64,000 nt of DNA from Paenisporosarcina antarctica (GTDB taxonomy: Bacteria > Bacillota > Bacilli > Bacillales_A > Planococcaceae): NCBI RefSeq assembly GCF_004367585.1, contig NZ_CP038015.1, positions 2,300,001 through 2,364,000 of the forward strand. Direction: 5' to 3'. Below are positions 14,660-44,568 of this stretch, piece by piece. How positions within the stretch are numbered: position 1 is the first letter of the stretch; each line of letters starts with the position of its first letter. The position numbers and the translations under genes are program-made. Under the pieces are notes generated by a model. It made no database searches and was not told the DNA's origin. It saw nothing but the letters and a program-made list of their open reading frames with translations.

Positions 14660-14722
14660 TGTTCTAGGTTGATCGAGTTACGTTCCAGGTTGATGCTATG
14701 ACTCGCCTTAGTTGTACAAAAT
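14660..14722 (-). repeat. Degenerate array of 21-bp repeats, third copy in the window
   Basis: On the minus strand this reads TTTTGTACAACTAAGG, then CAACCTGGA, then CAACCTAGA. The plus-strand cores are at 14706-14714, 14684-14692 and 14663-14671, at 22 and 21 bp spacing. Core and spacing match the arrays at 34.0 and 35.3 kb, but the orientation is opposite. Confidence 0.6.
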
Positions 14723-33234: not shown

Positions 33235-33813
33235 TTATTGTGCTACATCACCGATGAAATAAACGCTAGTCACACGCCAGTTTCCATCCTCTTTAATAAA
33301 AACGGTCACTTGCCGACCTGTTCGGTCAAGCTTTCCACCAGTTGATTCTTGCTTAAGTGAAATAGAGAGCGAAGCATAAACTTGTGCTTGATTTTCATTA
33401 TATTTAATAACCGTCACATCTTCAGCCGTTCGATTCACTTCATATTGAGTAAACGTTTCTTTTACGAACTTTTCTTCTCCCTGGTAATCAAACCCTTCAG
33501 GTTCAGTTGCGATTACAGACATATATTTCTCAATATCCTCTTCATTAAAAGCAGTTATATACAATTCAAATACTTCTATTAACGATTTTTTCTCTTCTGC
33601 AGGTACATTTTGAGCTTCCTCAATATCAGTTCCCACCATTTCAAACCCAACATCAGATTTCGCTTGATCCTTCACTTCATGTTCCAACGCACTATTTTCA
33701 CTCGTGGATTCACCATCAGATACTGAACCAGTTTCATCACTATTTTCTTTACTCGCACAAGCTGACAAAAGTATTGAAATCATCACAAGCATGATAATAT
33801 ATTTAAATTTCAT
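33235..33813 (-). CDS. Lipoprotein with NTF2-like domain
   Basis: This 192-residue protein has lipobox ILLSAC (Cys at about residue 19), a long Ser/Glu-rich linker, then a domain at about 75-190 with the pattern of NTF2-like/DUF4440 folds (EVFELYITAFNEEDIEKYMSV at the start, VTVFIKEDGNWRVTSVYF at the end). It is surface exposed and anchored to the membrane. No enzyme motif is seen. It has its own terminator and a good AGGAGG site, so it is probably monocistronic. The degV gene that lies between comFA and degU in B. subtilis is not here. Confidence 0.8.
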   Translation of the reverse strand: MKFKYIIMLVMISILLSACASKENSDETGSVSDGESTSENSALEHEVKDQAKSDVGFEMVGTDIEEAQNVPAEEKKSLIEVFELYITAFNEEDIEKYMSVIATEPEGFDYQGEEKFVKETFTQYEVNRTAEDVTVIKYNENQAQVYASLSISLKQESTGGKLDRTGRQVTVFIKEDGNWRVTSVYFIGDVAQ

Positions 33814-34018
33814 TATGTTCGTGCCTCCTACTAGGTTATTGTGTCATAAAATTTGAGACCTAACAATTATTATAACCTCTTTCAAAATATAGACGACACT
33901 GAAGTTGTGAAAGTTTCGTGGTGAATCTATAGTATTGCTGTTGCCTATCGAGCGACCAATAGAATGAGATGATATGGGCAATTATTTATTACAATTTGCA
34001 CTAAAAGTGAGGGGATTA

Positions 34019-34112
34019 AGTGAGTCGACATCTTTTTGTACAACCCGGAGCAGCATTGTATCAACCTGGATAGTCATTCTAGCAACCTGGACAACAACTT
34101 TGTCAACTTGGA
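34019..34112 (+). repeat. Array of four 21-bp repeats, left copy
   Basis: AGTGAGTCGAC at 34019 is followed by four cores CAACCCGGA, CAACCTGGA, CAACCTGGA and CAACTTGGA, starting at 34041, 34062, 34083 and 34104. The spacing is exactly 21 bp (two helical turns), with variable 12-bp intervals usually ending in T/G-rich sequence. A stray unit, TTTGTACAACCTGGA, lies at 34171-34185. The layout resembles serial transposase-binding sites at transposon ends; that is inference. Confidence 0.8.
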
Positions 34113-34262
34113 GCCACGTGTGCCGACGCTTTACAGTTTGGCGAGGATATTTAAAGTAAGTCAAAATTATTTTGTACAACCTGGAAAATAAATACTCAAT
34201 TTACTTGCTAACATATTGGTAGAAATGATATTTTTCGTTATCTCCCAAAAAATTAATAAGGA

Positions 34263-35257
34263 GTGATTTTTATAGACGAAAAACGTGCAATGCCTGACTC
34301 ACTTAACGTTTACTTCAGGTTACTTCAGCGCATTCCGGTTCACCATCCACTCTATGTGGAAATAGAATCAAGAATTAATAGGATACTTGTTGGTTACAAT
34401 GGTGAAGCTTATGTAGATTATTTTTTGAAGAACATTGAATTCCCTATAAGATATGCAATTTTAAAAGAAACTAATATATGGTCTTCCCCAAGGTCAATGG
34501 TCCAACTTGATACACTTATTATTACACCTAATTTCATATGTATTTTAGAAATAAAAGCAATTAAAGATAAAATAGCATTTTAGCAAAATCCTGCTCAATT
34601 AGTTCGTGAATTAGAAGGTGTTCAAACTTCATTTAAATGTCCGGAAGAACAGTTAAAACGCCTCGAACGAAGGTTAGCCTTTTGGATGAAATCAAATCAA
34701 ATCAATCTACCTATAATCAGTTTCATAGTACTTGCATTCTCAAAAACACATGTAAGTTTGCCCCCAAAAGAATAAAAAATTATTATGGGATGCGATATAG
34801 GCTCTTATATCGAAGATTTATTTACATTACCCTAATGCTATCTCAAAAGAAGTTTACTCAACTTATTAATAAAGTGAAACAAGCACAAACGAGATTTCCC
34901 CCAACCCCACTGATAAATATTATCCCAATTGATTATTCCCTTATAAAAAAAGGACTTATATGTCCTAAGTGCTCGTTATGGATTGACAGTCTATTTAAAT
35001 GTCCAACTTGTAAAATATCTAGAAAAGTAATGATACTTAATGCTTTAGAGGATTGGTTTTATTTGATGAAGCATACAATGACGAATAAAGAATGTTTAGA
35101 CTTTCTTAAGTTAAAGGATAAAACATATGCATCACATATATTAACCAGATCACAATTGATACCAAAAAACAACGGACGTTATAGGTACTACAAATTAGTA
35201 GATGATGAGATTAACGTCATTAGAAAAGTGAGTAAAAGGAATTCAAGAATAATTTAA
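34263..35257 (+). pseudogene. Decayed NERD-domain (nuclease-related) protein gene
   Basis: Pieces of one NERD-family protein are spread over two frames. The first frame gives EKRAMPDSLNVYFRLLQRI, LVGYNGEAYVDYFL, QLDTLIITPNFICILEIKAI, then a TAG at 34581. The same frame continues with QNPAQLVRELEGVQ and LPIISFIVLAFSKTH to a stop near 34771. A second frame resumes around 34770 and gives the C-terminal zinc-ribbon (CPKCSLWIDSLFKCPTC) and TNKECLDFLKL...NNGRYRYYKL. At the position expected from AAGGAG (34258-34263) the start codon is ATA (34272). So the gene has lost its start, carries a nonsense codon and is frameshifted. It lies between two direct copies of the 21-bp array. Confidence 0.85.
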
Positions 35258-35291
35258 GTAAGAAACAAATCTACTTATCTGAGTTTATTAA

Positions 35292-35385
35292 AGTGAGTCG
35301 ACGTCATTTTGTACAACCTGGAGCTCCATTCTGTCTACCTGTATGTCCATAAGTTCAACTTGGACAGCGTCTTCGTTAACCTGGA
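35292..35385 (+). repeat. Array of four 21-bp repeats, right copy
   Basis: The same AGTGAGTCGAC (35292-35302) is followed after the same 22-bp offset by cores at 35314, 35335, 35356 and 35377 (CAACCTGGA, CTACCTGTA, CAACTTGGA, TAACCTGGA), again exactly 21 bp apart. It is a direct repeat of the left array, 1273 bp away, not inverted. Confidence 0.8.
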
Positions 35386-35421
35386 ACAACACAATGCATC
35401 ACACCTAACCTAAAAAAAATC

Positions 35422-35474: not shown

Positions 35475-36149
35475 TTAACGTACTTCAACCCAACCATTTT
35501 TAATGGCTGTGACTACGGCTTGTGTACGATCATTTACGTTCATTTTTTGAAGAATACTTGATACATGGTTTTTTACAGTTTTTTCAGAGATGAACAAAGT
35601 TTCACCTATTGTTCGGTTACTTTGACCATCTGTTAATAATTGAAGAACTTCGCATTCACGTTTTGTTAATAAGTGGAATGGTCGACGAATTTCTGATTGA
35701 TGGAATGACCCTTTGTTTTCACGTTCGCTTAAGCGTCGGAATTCTGCAACAAGATTTCGAGTTACTTTTGGATGTAAATAAGAACCGCCAGCAGCGACAA
35801 CTTTAATAGCTTGGATGATTGCATCTGCATCCATCTCTTTTAACATGTATCCAAGAGCACCTGTTTTTAGAGCGTGCATTACATAAGATTCGTCATCGTG
35901 TATGGACAGCATAATAACTTTAGCTTCAGGATATTTCGCCAATAACTCGGCAGTTGCTTCCACACCATTTTTGCGCGGCATATTAATGTCCATGAGCATT
36001 ACTTCTGGTACATATTGTTCATACAAGCTTAGTGCATCACTTCCATCATCACCTTCAGCAATCACTTCAAATGAATCTTCAAAATCTAATATACGTTTTA
36101 CACCTTCACGGAATAATTGGTGGTCATCTATAATTACAATTTTAGTCAT
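35475..36149 (-). CDS. degU: Response regulator DegU
   Basis: This 224-residue regulator has an N-terminal receiver domain (phospho-acceptor Asp54 in MLMDINMP) and a C-terminal LuxR-type helix-turn-helix ([35 protein letters not shown]). DegS-DegU controls exoenzymes, competence and motility in Bacillus; the many exported hydrolases nearby are plausible targets, though no DegU site was identified. The ATG at 36149 is 8 bp from GGAGG, while an ATG two codons upstream is too close to it. Confidence 0.95.
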
Positions 36150-36188
36150 TGTCATTTCCTCCTAATGTATAAAACACACACTTCTATG

Positions 36189-39806: not shown

Positions 39807-42800
39807 TTAGTTACCTAAATATTTATCAAGTTCAGCCAAGACGCTATCAGGTACTGCTAATTTACCACCTAATACATCTACGTACTCAACTCCAAGTTTT
39901 TGTAAATGTTCACCAAGTTCTGGAGTAACATTTTTACCAACGATATATACGCCAGAACCTTCTTTAGCCGCTAATACTCCACCAGCTAAAGCATCCGCAA
40001 AGTTTACACCAGTTGATACATATACTCTCTTAGTTTCATCTGCAAAGAATTTTGAGATGGCAACTGAAGTAGCATAACGTGAAGAACCAGAGATACGGTG
40101 ACCGTTTGGTACAGAATTTAATACACTGTCGTTCACTGCTAGTTTACCACCGATCACGTAAGACTTCTCTACGCCAGCTTTTACTAATGCATCTTTTGTA
40201 ACTGCTGGTAACGATTTGTCACGTGTTAATAGGATTGGCATACCTTGCTCAGCCGCATAGCTAGAAACTGACAATGCATCTGGGAAGTTTAAGCCACTCG
40301 CAATTACAGCAGTATCGTATTTACCGAACTTGCTAGCAATTTTAGCAGCTGTTTCATAACGGTCTTTACCTGAAATACGCTCAACTACAATTCCTGATTG
40401 AGTTAATTTCTCTAAAACGTTTTTCGAAATCGCAGTTTCGCCACCAAGAACAACTACTTTAGAAGCGCCTAAACGTTTGATTTCATCATAAGTTGAAGCG
40501 GGTAATGAACTTGTTTTAGAAAGTAACAATGGACCACCATTCAGATGTGCTAATGGAACACCAGCTAATGCATCCGCATATTGATCTCCGCGAGCTAGAA
40601 CAACTGTTTCTGCTGATTCCCAACCTTTTTGGCTTACTTTTACTGCAGTTTCATAACGATCTGATCCTGAAATACGTTCAGCACGTAATTCTGATGCAGA
40701 GCGATCAACTTTAACTTCTTTCGTCACTTTATTTCCAGCAGCATCTTCAACAACTACATTGAATGAATTTACACCTTTAGCTAAATCAACTGTTACTGCT
40801 ACTTTTTCATCCGTAGGTGTAAGGAATTTCGTCTCATCAATGAATTCACGGTTAAAGACAACATCTCCATCCACAGTTACTTTAGCAGCGTTAAAGTTAT
40901 CTTTAACAAATATGTTGAAATCTAATTTCGCAACATCATTATTTACTACTGATGGAGCGTCATGACCAACCGTTGGTGCTGTAGTGTCAACGTAGATAGG
41001 ACGAGCAATTTCAAACGCGTTGCCATTTACATCGACTGCTTTGATCTTAATGTTTTTGTACCCATCTGTAGTAAAGGCTACTGTTGTTTCGAAATTGTAA
41101 ACTTTTTTCTCTGCGTCATAAGTAAACGCAACATCTTTGCCTTCAACAGTTAGAGTTGCAAGAGCTTCATCCTCCACGGTACCTTTTACTAATACATTTT
41201 TCGTATTGTAAAGACCTAATGCAGAAGGTGTCGCATCGCCTAAGAAAATAATAGGTAAGTTGTCATCACCAATTACGTTACCTTCATAACCTAAATTGTA
41301 TGCGTGATCGACAGGTACTACATCAATCGATTTTACATCTTTTGCTTCATATCCATAATCACCTAAGTTAACTTCCGTTTTAGATGCATCTAGATACGTT
41401 TTGCCAGTTACATCTACACCATTAATGTAAAGTGCATAGAATGCAGTACCGACACCTTCATCTGTAAATTTAAAATTAGCTACGTTAGTTTCAGCGTTAT
41501 ATGAGATTTCAGCTGTTGGAGCAACTGTATCTACATAAACCGGTAGTTTAGTTGACTGCCATTCAGCATTTTCATAGTCCACTTTAGCTTTAAGCTCGTA
41601 GTGGTATAAACCATCTACAACTGTTTCATTTTTAACTTTACCGTCCCAAATACGAGATTCATTGTAAGAGTACCAGCTACCAGTTCCACCATTGTAGTAG
41701 TTTTTGCGAACATCTTGTTCTTTATTAACTGAACGTAATTGATTCGCACCAGTGCTATCTAATACATTTGTTTCAAATTCTTTTGCGTTACGTAGTAAAG
41801 ATGGCAATGCAAGAACATCTTCCATTAATCCATCGTTATTTGGAGACATTACATATACTTCTTTTCCATCTACTTCAATCGTGTCTTGGAAATAGTTACC
41901 TTTGTCATTTAACATATTCGAGAAATTATTGAATTCGAATAGGTCTTGATAGAATTTATCGTCACCTTCAAAATCGTCAACGATCTCTGGACGGTCCCAC
42001 TCACCATAGAAGCCGATATATGGAACGACTAAATCAGGGTTTGTTACATCTTTACTATTGAATTTCAAGAAACCTTCAACGAATACGTCTTGTTCAATTG
42101 CTTTGAAGATGTCTTTTCCATCATTATTAAGTCCTGGAACTTTAGCGTCTGTTAAATCGATTGAAACCGTAACATCCACTTTACCATTTGCAGGAACTGT
42201 AACTGTTTCTGGTGCAGATACTTTCACGTCTTTTAAGTCACCAGACTGTAATTGGTTGTAGACAATTTCGCCATATTCTTCGAATCTATCAGCAAGTACT
42301 GAAGTGTCTACATCATACTCAACAGCTTTATCTGTTAAGTTTTCAGCTGTAACAGTCATGGTGAATGTTTTGCTTTGGAAATCTTTTACGTTTACTTTTG
42401 CTTCTCCAGTAGTTTTATCCGTTACGACAACTGGTGTGTTAACTGCAGCAAACAATTGCATCATACCTGCACCTTGACGTCGAGGAGAAACTTCACTACC
42501 GTCTAAACCTGTTGTAATATCAGCAGTGTTCATTAATAATTTTTTAGCCAAACGTGTACGTTGATCAGCTGTGTAACTGTCAAAGCGCGCATCACCTTTA
42601 AGGTATTGTTGAATTAATGCTGCACCACCTGCCACGTGTGGTGCCGCCATTGACGTACCGCTCATAACCGTATATTTATCGTCATTTACTGTTGAGTAAA
42701 TATTTCCACCTGGAGCTGAAAGTTCTGGTTTGAACTCTAAGTCTGGTGTTACTCCCCATGAAGTAAAGTCAGTTGAACGGCCTACTTCTGGATTTTCTTT

Positions 42801-44456
42801 TTTGTCAGTTTGGTTTACACCTAAAGTAACAGAACCACCATCCTTAAGAACTTCTTCAAGCGCTAAACCTTCAGCACGTGTTGATTTCATAAATGGAATA
42901 TCCCAGCCACCTTGGTCTTTGTAGAACACTGTAGATGTTGAGTTATATACGACAATTCCTGCAGCACCAGCTGCTGCTGCATTAATCGTTTTATCGACAA
43001 ATGTGAGTGCACCACGTTCAACAAGTACGACTTTGCCTTTAACATCGATTCCATCGTAGTCTGATTTAGCTCCTAATGCAGATTGATTTCCTGAAAACGC
43101 TTTCAAACTTACTACTTCTACTTCTCCAAGTGTTGTCCAATCATCTACACCGAAACCAGTGATTGATTGGCCATCACCTGATAATGTATGAGTAAACTCA
43201 TAAACTAAGTTTCCTGTTGCTGCAACTTGCACTGTGTCTTTGTTTAATCCAGGTGAACCAACTAAACCATAATCCGGATTTTGATAATATGGATTATCAT
43301 ATCCGTAGCCGATTGTACCTGAGTTACCCGCTGAAACAGATGCCACAATTCCATTTGCAACTGCTTTAGATATCGCTAAATCTTCTGCACTGTTTTCTTC
43401 ATAGAAAGAAGAAGTTGAACCTAAACTCATGTTCAATACATCTGCACCTAATTTAACTGCATCATCAATAGCCGCTAAATAAATATCAGAGAATGTTGAT
43501 GGGAAGTTCGGGTCATTACTGAAAACTTTCATACCAAGTAGTTGAGATTCTGGTGCAACCCCTTTGATACCACCGTTAGTCGTATCTCCGTTTGCTCCAA
43601 CAGTACCAGCAACATGCATACCATGCATTGATGCATCAGGACCGAGATCCTTAATCGTATCGTTTTGGTCATAGTAGTTATATGCAAAAGGAACTTTAGG
43701 CGTATAGAATTTACCAGTCAAACCTGAAGCCGTAACTTCAGCAGAAGTAAGTTCACCTGATGTTGTATTGGTTAACACAAAATCCTTATGATCTGGGTCG
43801 ATACCAGAGTCTATAACGGCCACAATCATTCCTTCACCTTTATACTTAGCGTCAGCCCAAGTTTGATAAGACTGAATAAAGTCATGACTTTTCGTCATAT
43901 CTGGCGTAACTTGTGGTTTTTCGTATTCATTCGCTAAATAAACTTTTTTTACATTCGGTAAACTTTCAATTTTCTTGACATCAGCAAAGCGAACTTGTCC
44001 ACTGAATCCGTTGAAAGTAGTTGTATAGTCAAACTGTGCATCGAAACCGATACCTCGAGAAGAAATTGTGTCTTTCAATGACTTATGAGCCTTTTTAAGA
44101 CTTGAATCAATTTTTGCTTTTTCTGTAGAAGATAATTCTTTGTAGAGTAAACCTTTTTCAGTTGCAACTTCAACAGCAGAAGATCCCTCTACTTCGACAA
44201 TAACGCGAACTTGATCGTTTTCTTTCAAATTAGCTTTTAAATCTTTTTTGTTTTCGAACTTTTTCTCCGAAAGTTGTTTCACAAGCTTTGCTTTTTCATT
44301 CGATAACACATTTAGCACTTTTGAATCTTTTTCAAGATTCGTACTTGGAGCTTTTGTGGTAGTTTGTGCCGAGACAAAAGAAACGTTGCTAAGTACAAGA
44401 CCTGTTGCTAAAAATGTAGATAGATACTTTTTCCATACTTTTGAACCATTTACCAA
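39807..44456 (-). CDS. Large secreted subtilisin-like protease with CWB2 wall anchor
   Basis: This 1549-residue protein starts at TTG (44456) with GGAGG 8 bp upstream; an ATG further up lacks a site. It has a signal peptide (about 1-30), an I9-type propeptide (about 80-180) and an S8 peptidase domain with Asp216 (AVIDSGIDPDH), His278 (MHGMHVAGT) and Ser602 (SGTSMAAPHVAGG). A PA insert (about 420-550) precedes the Ser. Fn3-like and Ig-like domains follow, then three CWB2 repeats at about 1245-1545 (ERISGSDRYETAV, ERISGKDRYETAA, HRISGSSRYATSV). It resembles cell-envelope proteinases (C5a-peptidase type). CWB2 repeats bind secondary wall polymer, so it is probably displayed on the surface. Confidence 0.93.
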   Translation of the reverse strand: MVNGSKVWKKYLSTFLATGLVLSNVSFVSAQTTTKAPSTNLEKDSKVLNVLSNEKAKLVKQLSEKKFENKKDLKANLKENDQVRVIVEVEGSSAVEVATEKGLLYKELSSTEKAKIDSSLKKAHKSLKDTISSRGIGFDAQFDYTTTFNGFSGQVRFADVKKIESLPNVKKVYLANEYEKPQVTPDMTKSHDFIQSYQTWADAKYKGEGMIVAVIDSGIDPDHKDFVLTNTTSGELTSAEVTASGLTGKFYTPKVPFAYNYYDQNDTIKDLGPDASMHGMHVAGTVGANGDTTNGGIKGVAPESQLLGMKVFSNDPNFPSTFSDIYLAAIDDAVKLGADVLNMSLGSTSSFYEENSAEDLAISKAVANGIVASVSAGNSGTIGYGYDNPYYQNPDYGLVGSPGLNKDTVQVAATGNLVYEFTHTLSGDGQSITGFGVDDWTTLGEVEVVSLKAFSGNQSALGAKSDYDGIDVKGKVVLVERGALTFVDKTINAAAAGAAGIVVYNSTSTVFYKDQGGWDIPFMKSTRAEGLALEEVLKDGGSVTLGVNQTDKKENPEVGRSTDFTSWGVTPDLEFKPELSAPGGNIYSTVNDDKYTVMSGTSMAAPHVAGGAALIQQYLKGDARFDSYTADQRTRLAKKLLMNTADITTGLDGSEVSPRRQGAGMMQLFAAVNTPVVVTDKTTGEAKVNVKDFQSKTFTMTVTAENLTDKAVEYDVDTSVLADRFEEYGEIVYNQLQSGDLKDVKVSAPETVTVPANGKVDVTVSIDLTDAKVPGLNNDGKDIFKAIEQDVFVEGFLKFNSKDVTNPDLVVPYIGFYGEWDRPEIVDDFEGDDKFYQDLFEFNNFSNMLNDKGNYFQDTIEVDGKEVYVMSPNNDGLMEDVLALPSLLRNAKEFETNVLDSTGANQLRSVNKEQDVRKNYYNGGTGSWYSYNESRIWDGKVKNETVVDGLYHYELKAKVDYENAEWQSTKLPVYVDTVAPTAEISYNAETNVANFKFTDEGVGTAFYALYINGVDVTGKTYLDASKTEVNLGDYGYEAKDVKSIDVVPVDHAYNLGYEGNVIGDDNLPIIFLGDATPSALGLYNTKNVLVKGTVEDEALATLTVEGKDVAFTYDAEKKVYNFETTVAFTTDGYKNIKIKAVDVNGNAFEIARPIYVDTTAPTVGHDAPSVVNNDVAKLDFNIFVKDNFNAAKVTVDGDVVFNREFIDETKFLTPTDEKVAVTVDLAKGVNSFNVVVEDAAGNKVTKEVKVDRSASELRAERISGSDRYETAVKVSQKGWESAETVVLARGDQYADALAGVPLAHLNGGPLLLSKTSSLPASTYDEIKRLGASKVVVLGGETAISKNVLEKLTQSGIVVERISGKDRYETAAKIASKFGKYDTAVIASGLNFPDALSVSSYAAEQGMPILLTRDKSLPAVTKDALVKAGVEKSYVIGGKLAVNDSVLNSVPNGHRISGSSRYATSVAISKFFADETKRVYVSTGVNFADALAGGVLAAKEGSGVYIVGKNVTPELGEHLQKLGVEYVDVLGGKLAVPDSVLAELDKYLGN

Positions 44457-44538
44457 AATAAATTCCTCCCTAGAGTTCCCTATTTGCAGCAGAGAAAATA
44501 AAGACTTTTTATTCAGTTTTATATTCCTCGCATTACAA

Positions 44539-44568
44539 ATCATACCAAATGGACCTTATCATGGTCAA
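44539..44568 (-). promoter_or_regulatory. Promoter of the subtilase gene
   Basis: The minus strand has TTGACC (44568-44563), an 18-bp spacer and TATGAT (44544-44539). This predicts a leader of about 75 nt. Confidence 0.6.

Follow-up and report, generated by a model that had tools for sequence, protein, structure and literature searches.

Lineage-specific repeat arrays of 20–21-bp pitch accompany a branch of NERD-domain genes in Planococcaceae

The ends of IS21 and of Tn7/Tn5053-like elements carry serial transposase sites in inverted orientation, and the elements encode a DDE transposase and an ATPase. Plasmid iterons are direct repeats of about 20–22 bp that lie on one helical face. RAYT transposases of gammaproteobacteria are related to the IS200/IS605 transposases, and their REP elements are imperfect palindromes in inverted orientation (PMC2817692). 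We analysed a window of 64,000 nucleotides from Paenisporosarcina antarctica (contig NZ_CP038015.1, positions 2,300,001 to 2,364,000), in which direct repeat arrays bracket a gene with a NERD domain, together with related loci in other genomes. As in RAYT/REP systems, a chromosomal gene is flanked by its own short repeats, of which many copies are scattered over intergenic regions, gene and repeat co-evolve, there are several families per genome, and composite clusters occur (PMC2817692). Unlike in those systems, the protein is not a Y1/HUH transposase but a NERD protein with a zinc ribbon and an HTH-like tail. The repeats are asymmetric and head-to-tail, 20–21 bp apart, rather than palindromic, and at all 15 two-sided loci the flanking arrays are direct repeats, of 59–508 bp and 72–97% identity, with none inverted.

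Several predicted protein sites about two helical turns apart are a likeness to the ends of IS21 and Tn7/Tn5053-like elements, but no DDE transposase lies between inverted ends here. With iterons the arrays share direct repeats, a similar pitch and a single helical face; unlike iterons, they are dispersed on the chromosome and have a nuclease-like partner protein and no replication gene. The NERD domain itself is shared, by weak matches, with the defence proteins PglW, MAD6 and NERD-UvrD, whose architecture differs; NERD genes of other architectures lacked arrays in 35 of 38 loci. The NERD-plus-array system is apparently undescribed so far. The open-access literature, seen mostly through titles and the openings of abstracts, yielded no prior description of NERD-linked repeat arrays, and no open-access work that treats NERD, nuclease, tandem repeats and Bacillus together was found.

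The window locus

The features of the window that concern us are as follows.

33235–33813, minus strand: DUF4440-type lipoprotein gene, left neighbour of the locus
34018–34117, plus strand: upstream type A array, a leader and four 9-bp cores at 21 bp
34151–34185, plus strand: partial third copy, leader and first unit, a degenerate remnant of a duplicated array
34332–35206, plus strand: NERD pseudogene, with N-terminal nuclease-related domain, zinc ribbon (CPKC..CPTC) and HTH-like tail
35291–35390, plus strand: downstream type A array, direct, with cores at 35314, 35335, 35356 and 35377
35475–36155, minus strand: DegU-like response regulator gene, right neighbour of the locus
14663–14722, minus strand: degenerate solo type A array at a separate intergenic site

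The leader AGTGAGTCGAC is present twice, at 34019–34029 and 35292–35302, and in both arrays the first core begins 22 bp from the leader start (34041 and 35314). From there the cores follow in exact 21-bp steps. Those of the upstream array are CAACCCGGA (34041), CAACCTGGA (34062), CAACCTGGA (34083) and CAACTTGGA (34104), and those of the downstream array are CAACCTGGA (35314), CTACCTGTA (35335), CAACTTGGA (35356) and TAACCTGGA (35377). The two arrays, of 100 bp each, run in the same direction and share 74% identity. Neither the DNA between them nor that adjoining them encodes a transposase. No inverted repeat was found within them, the cores are asymmetric, and Rfam gave no match at either. The first-pass annotation of this DNA had described the common leader, the 22-bp offset and the four evenly spaced 9-bp cores, and direct arrays that enclose a dead NERD gene and no transposase; all of this is borne out by the window coordinates. 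The partial third copy and the degenerate minus-strand array from 14663 were absent from it.

Compared with an intact relative, the NERD gene is disrupted by three in-frame stops and a change of frame. It still scores 36.5 bits against PF08378 (NERD), compared with 49.9–67.1 bits for four intact relatives and a curated Pfam cut-off of 22.1. In two relatives, G006 and G003, direct type A arrays at the same locus enclose a NERD gene that is intact. In G007 a single array is present here, without a NERD gene, and in G005 the locus is broken by a larger rearrangement. An intact type A NERD gene is present in Paenisporosarcina quisquiliarum SK 55 (L114:3594–4487). G007 also carries a type A array at the place orthologous to the solo array at 14663–14722. 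We regard the window as probably containing a decayed member of a protein-plus-array family, in which the type A gene is dead and its arrays are decaying. Elsewhere in the window (39807–44543) lies an S8-type protease gene of 1578 residues, with repeats near the C-terminus that look cell-wall-binding.

NERD architecture and core sequence

Arrays of 20- or 21-bp period with differing cores lie beside most Paenisporosarcina NERD genes, usually close 3' of the stop codon and sometimes upstream as well, and 40 loci added from other Planococcaceae gave the same pattern. We sorted the NERD genes from loci of Planococcaceae and other Bacilli families by C-terminal type, using a profile made solely from protein sequences. 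An array was counted when one of 20–21 bp lay within 700 bp of the gene at a periodicity score threshold of 37, which shuffled flanks reached in 2 of 151 cases. Arrays are linked to one architecture: they accompany 65 of the 73 genes with a C-terminal zinc ribbon and HTH-like tail, and 3 of the 38 with other architectures (p = 1e-17). Five of the eight misses among the former scored 34–36 at 20 or 21 bp, just under the threshold. Of such genes outside Planococcaceae, three (from two families) are accompanied by arrays and one, from yet another family, lacks them. The pairing of NERD gene and array, which extends over Planococcaceae and at least two further families of Bacilli, is well supported. 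With the queries used, the gene family was found on no plasmid, phage or viral contig, unlike most mobile elements.

The NERD-linked arrays have a period of 21 bp in 54 cases and of 20 bp in 11, and the best period at one gene is 15 bp. Two-turn phasing had been read in the first-pass annotation as a sign of a protein lying along one face of the DNA, and these periods, held across differing cores, lend that prediction good support.

Matches of the linked proteins in Pfam and NCBIfam were limited to NERD and weak zinc-ribbon/HTH hits; no Y1/HUH transposase domain and no Cas or Tas effector domain was found in them. The tail has an invariant CxxC..CxxC followed by ITNxEFRxFLxI, and shows a weak resemblance to HTH_17 and to the zinc ribbons of transposases. 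AlphaFold2 models it with modest confidence (pLDDT about 64–72) as a ribbon-like region and three helices. The full-length model was unusable (pLDDT 38.6), and the models, as weak predictions, matched no solved fold. A loose D..ExK pattern for the putative catalytic residues of a PD-(D/E)XK-type nuclease is present in 61 of the 73 genes.

The core sequence is specific to the NERD lineage. By eye, AGTTGC-type cores go with WWLGIED tails and CCGCTCATAGA with TNRQFRHF..SRH tails, while CCGCAAATAAA, CCGCACCTCAA and TGAGCGATAAAT each have their own tail type. Motif similarity correlates with C-terminal identity (Mantel r = 0.19, p = 0.0005, the smallest value possible at 2000 permutations), and is 0.71–0.81 for pairs with at least 50% identity and 0.33 for pairs below 25%. 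The correlation between core and C-terminus holds after N-terminal identity has been regressed out, and the converse holds as well. As the N-terminal half also covaries with the core, the comparison alone does not single out the tail, which is a candidate reader of the array.

Distribution and turnover of the arrays

Our sample contained one genome per species. G000 denotes the window's own genome, type A the arrays of the window, type B those with ACAACGTGGA and type C those with CCAACTTGGA. The recurrence and preserved spacing on which the first-pass reading depended were both found in a whole-genome pattern search: the type A pattern is present in five of nine Paenisporosarcina genomes, at 4 to 16 places each, while a reversed control pattern had no matches. 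At one mismatch it was found in none of the other 252 Planococcaceae genomes. Type A arrays start with ATTTTGTRCAACC, have at least two units and are intergenic, with otherwise unrelated flanks. The array loci examined are, with two exceptions, outside long ORFs, and many array positions are common to species whose flanks are only about 75–84% similar.

Solo arrays scattered over a genome match the NERD genes resident in it. The core GAACRGGAWTAAA of the intact NERD gene at G000:C1:2781741 gave 84 array-pair matches in G000 and none with the control; in this family the gene is intact and its arrays are abundant. Four 21-bp arrays were found in 400 kb of G075, which belongs to another genus. 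Two match the resident genes G075h and G075d as the best of 65 motifs; one of the others has no assigned NERD gene and one is probably coding. Overall, a resident NERD gene provided the best or joint-best of the 65 motifs for all six solo arrays tested, in two genera. Solo arrays also remain in G005, whose cognate gene is broken, and in G007, in which none was found at the locus.

Orthologous sites differ between species in the presence of arrays and in the family that occupies them. Between engB and hemA, the array of G006 is of type A, and that of G003 is a GAGCGATAAA array with a degenerate type A one next to it. G007 has GAATGGATGAAAA arrays and G000 a GAACAGGAATAAA array; neither G002 nor G001 has any. 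These are four array families in four species, each matching its resident NERD gene as best (joint-best in G003). The degU locus is occupied by a reverse type C array in G004 and by another NERD lineage, accompanied by a 20-bp array, in G001; in G002 it is empty. The differing families and empty sites at both places indicate that array families come and go at shared sites. G002 is empty at both, with flanks too diverged to place an insertion point, and the genomes compared yielded no insertion that shows a clean target site or a duplication of the target. We therefore infer movement from presence and absence and from amplification.

Closely related arrays differ in a characteristic manner. Across nine alignable arrays of G005 and G006, changes affected 4 of 429 core positions (0.9%), 18 of 192 positions in the 8-bp spacers (9.4%) and 74 of 3660 flank positions (2.0%). 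Cores differ from spacers (p = 8e-7, and still p = 8e-4 without the most changed array) and spacers from flanks (p = 4e-7), while the difference between cores and flanks is not significant (p = 0.14). Array lengths in these two genomes differ by 21 or 42 bp, that is, by whole units gained or lost. Between L156 and L041, from two near-identical genomes, spacers change several times faster than flanks, as if units were swapped between arrays.

Arrays also form local tandem clusters, spaced roughly 200–370 bp apart, that take in local sequence such as a terminator. Type C clusters of this kind, with periods of roughly 200–370 bp, were seen in G004 and G007 (L317–L326), where the neighbouring sequence is duplicated and includes a terminator at L325. 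Type C copies at unrelated loci have merely about 105–135 bp in common. Copies of type B (L078, L079, L095 and others) have sequence in common beyond the array, for roughly 100 bp on the upstream and 150 bp on the downstream side, with a GAGCNNNNGCTC hairpin at the array end; no matching NERD gene for type B was recognised in G000. Relative to replication in G000, with origin and terminus placed by GC skew, 20 of 23 type B arrays (p = 0.001) and 16 of 18 of the GAACRGGAWTAAA family (p = 0.008) have the same orientation. As the motifs are written, type B and the GAACRGGAWTAAA family (G000:C1) take opposite replication senses.

Some array loci show other rearrangements. A type A array adjoins the apparently truncated end of a metal-transport ATPase gene (L315:3042 and L316), which suggests an array-linked deletion or rearrangement, and at L087 an apparent IS3-type orfA starts directly after a type B array, into which it seems to be inserted. 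G000 has two IS21 elements (L070 and L071, with istA and istB) whose ends bear serial repeats of their own, of TTTACCAC type. We had considered type B and C arrays as IS21-like ends, and rejected this once these istAB elements were retrieved, as their ends differ.

A proposed mechanism and its rivals

The account that we favour, and consider the likelier one, is that the NERD protein binds its own array as DNA and that its nuclease promotes the spread of the array, with spread and decay resembling those of RAYT/REP. A protein of roughly 320 residues, nuclease-like at the N-terminal NERD domain and with a zinc ribbon and HTH-like domain at the C-terminus, would recognise a lineage-specific core of about 9–13 bp repeated head to tail every 20–21 bp. 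One protein would occupy two helical turns, so that successive copies would sit on the same DNA face. That a fixed 20–21-bp pitch goes together with many unrelated cores speaks for such an arrangement on duplex DNA, which the tail may be the part to bind. The NERD domain may then cut DNA at or near arrays, leading to array copying into new intergenic sites, as has been proposed for RAYT on REP, and the same activity could account for the duplications, both tandem and direct, that are seen around the gene. We have more confidence in the predicted binding than in the predicted copying. An extended form of this proposal, in which NERD proteins copy arrays into preferred intergenic sites with an orientation set by replication, and protein specificity and core turn over rapidly together, is plausible but more tentative.

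Some of the same observations would fit arrays that serve the cell. The NERD protein could have an architectural, regulatory or self-versus-foreign role, with arrays as binding stations at neutral or insulated intergenic positions, spread by ordinary recombination. Orthologous positions held in common by species with such diverged flanks, cores that change less than spacers, the replication-related orientation of type B and the GAACRGGAWTAAA family and the failure of the searches to find the gene on plasmids or phages are all consistent with this. Against it stand the many unrelated families within a genome, families that are dying (as in the window), sets that differ between species and the use of one site by different families, a turnover that looks selfish or drive-like rather than reflecting one conserved function. 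We consider a cellular role rather unlikely, though it is the rival to be taken most seriously. Improbable by comparison is a function as RNA, in which arrays would be transcribed behind the NERD gene as guides or antitoxin-like RNAs (compare type III toxin-antitoxin and CRISPR/TIGR-like systems). The usual position of the arrays directly after the NERD stop codon and the alternation of repeats with variable, fast-changing 7–8-nt spacers fit this reading. Yet among eight array strands only type C, with its terminal hairpin, folds above shuffles, an RNA needs no pitch common to unrelated cores, solo arrays occur at many loci without a gene, and the window arrays have no Rfam match.

Two further readings can be largely set aside. 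Degenerate IS21- or Tn7-like transposon ends that captured a NERD gene would account for the resemblance to the IS21 elements of G000, which also have serial end repeats of similar form, and the first-pass annotation had compared the arrays with Tn7, Tn5053, Mu and IS21 ends. This reading is largely refuted and very improbable: no transposase lies between the window arrays, the ends of both IS21 elements in G000 are inverted and have a different core, and two-sided NERD loci are always direct. The core follows the NERD lineage, and the gene travels with the array whose core it matches, which also tells against the earlier suggestion that the gene was cargo picked up by the arrays. Least credible, to the point of being negligible, is a coding origin in a heptad-repeat protein, for which 21 bp would be seven codons and some array frames are indeed open. 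It is rejected because the 11 NERD-linked arrays at 20 bp do not keep frame; the position of nearly all examined array loci outside long ORFs also speaks against it.

If array binding and spread by NERD proteins are as we propose, they would provide a role for a NERD branch that is common but uncharacterised, and account for one class of the intergenic repeats of Planococcaceae. They would also constitute a second kind of system, beside RAYT/REP, in which an enzyme is paired with its cognate dispersed repeat, differing from it in both enzyme and repeat. The natural protein–core pairs, 65 from a small genome sample, would then be a ready-made set for a protein–DNA recognition code.
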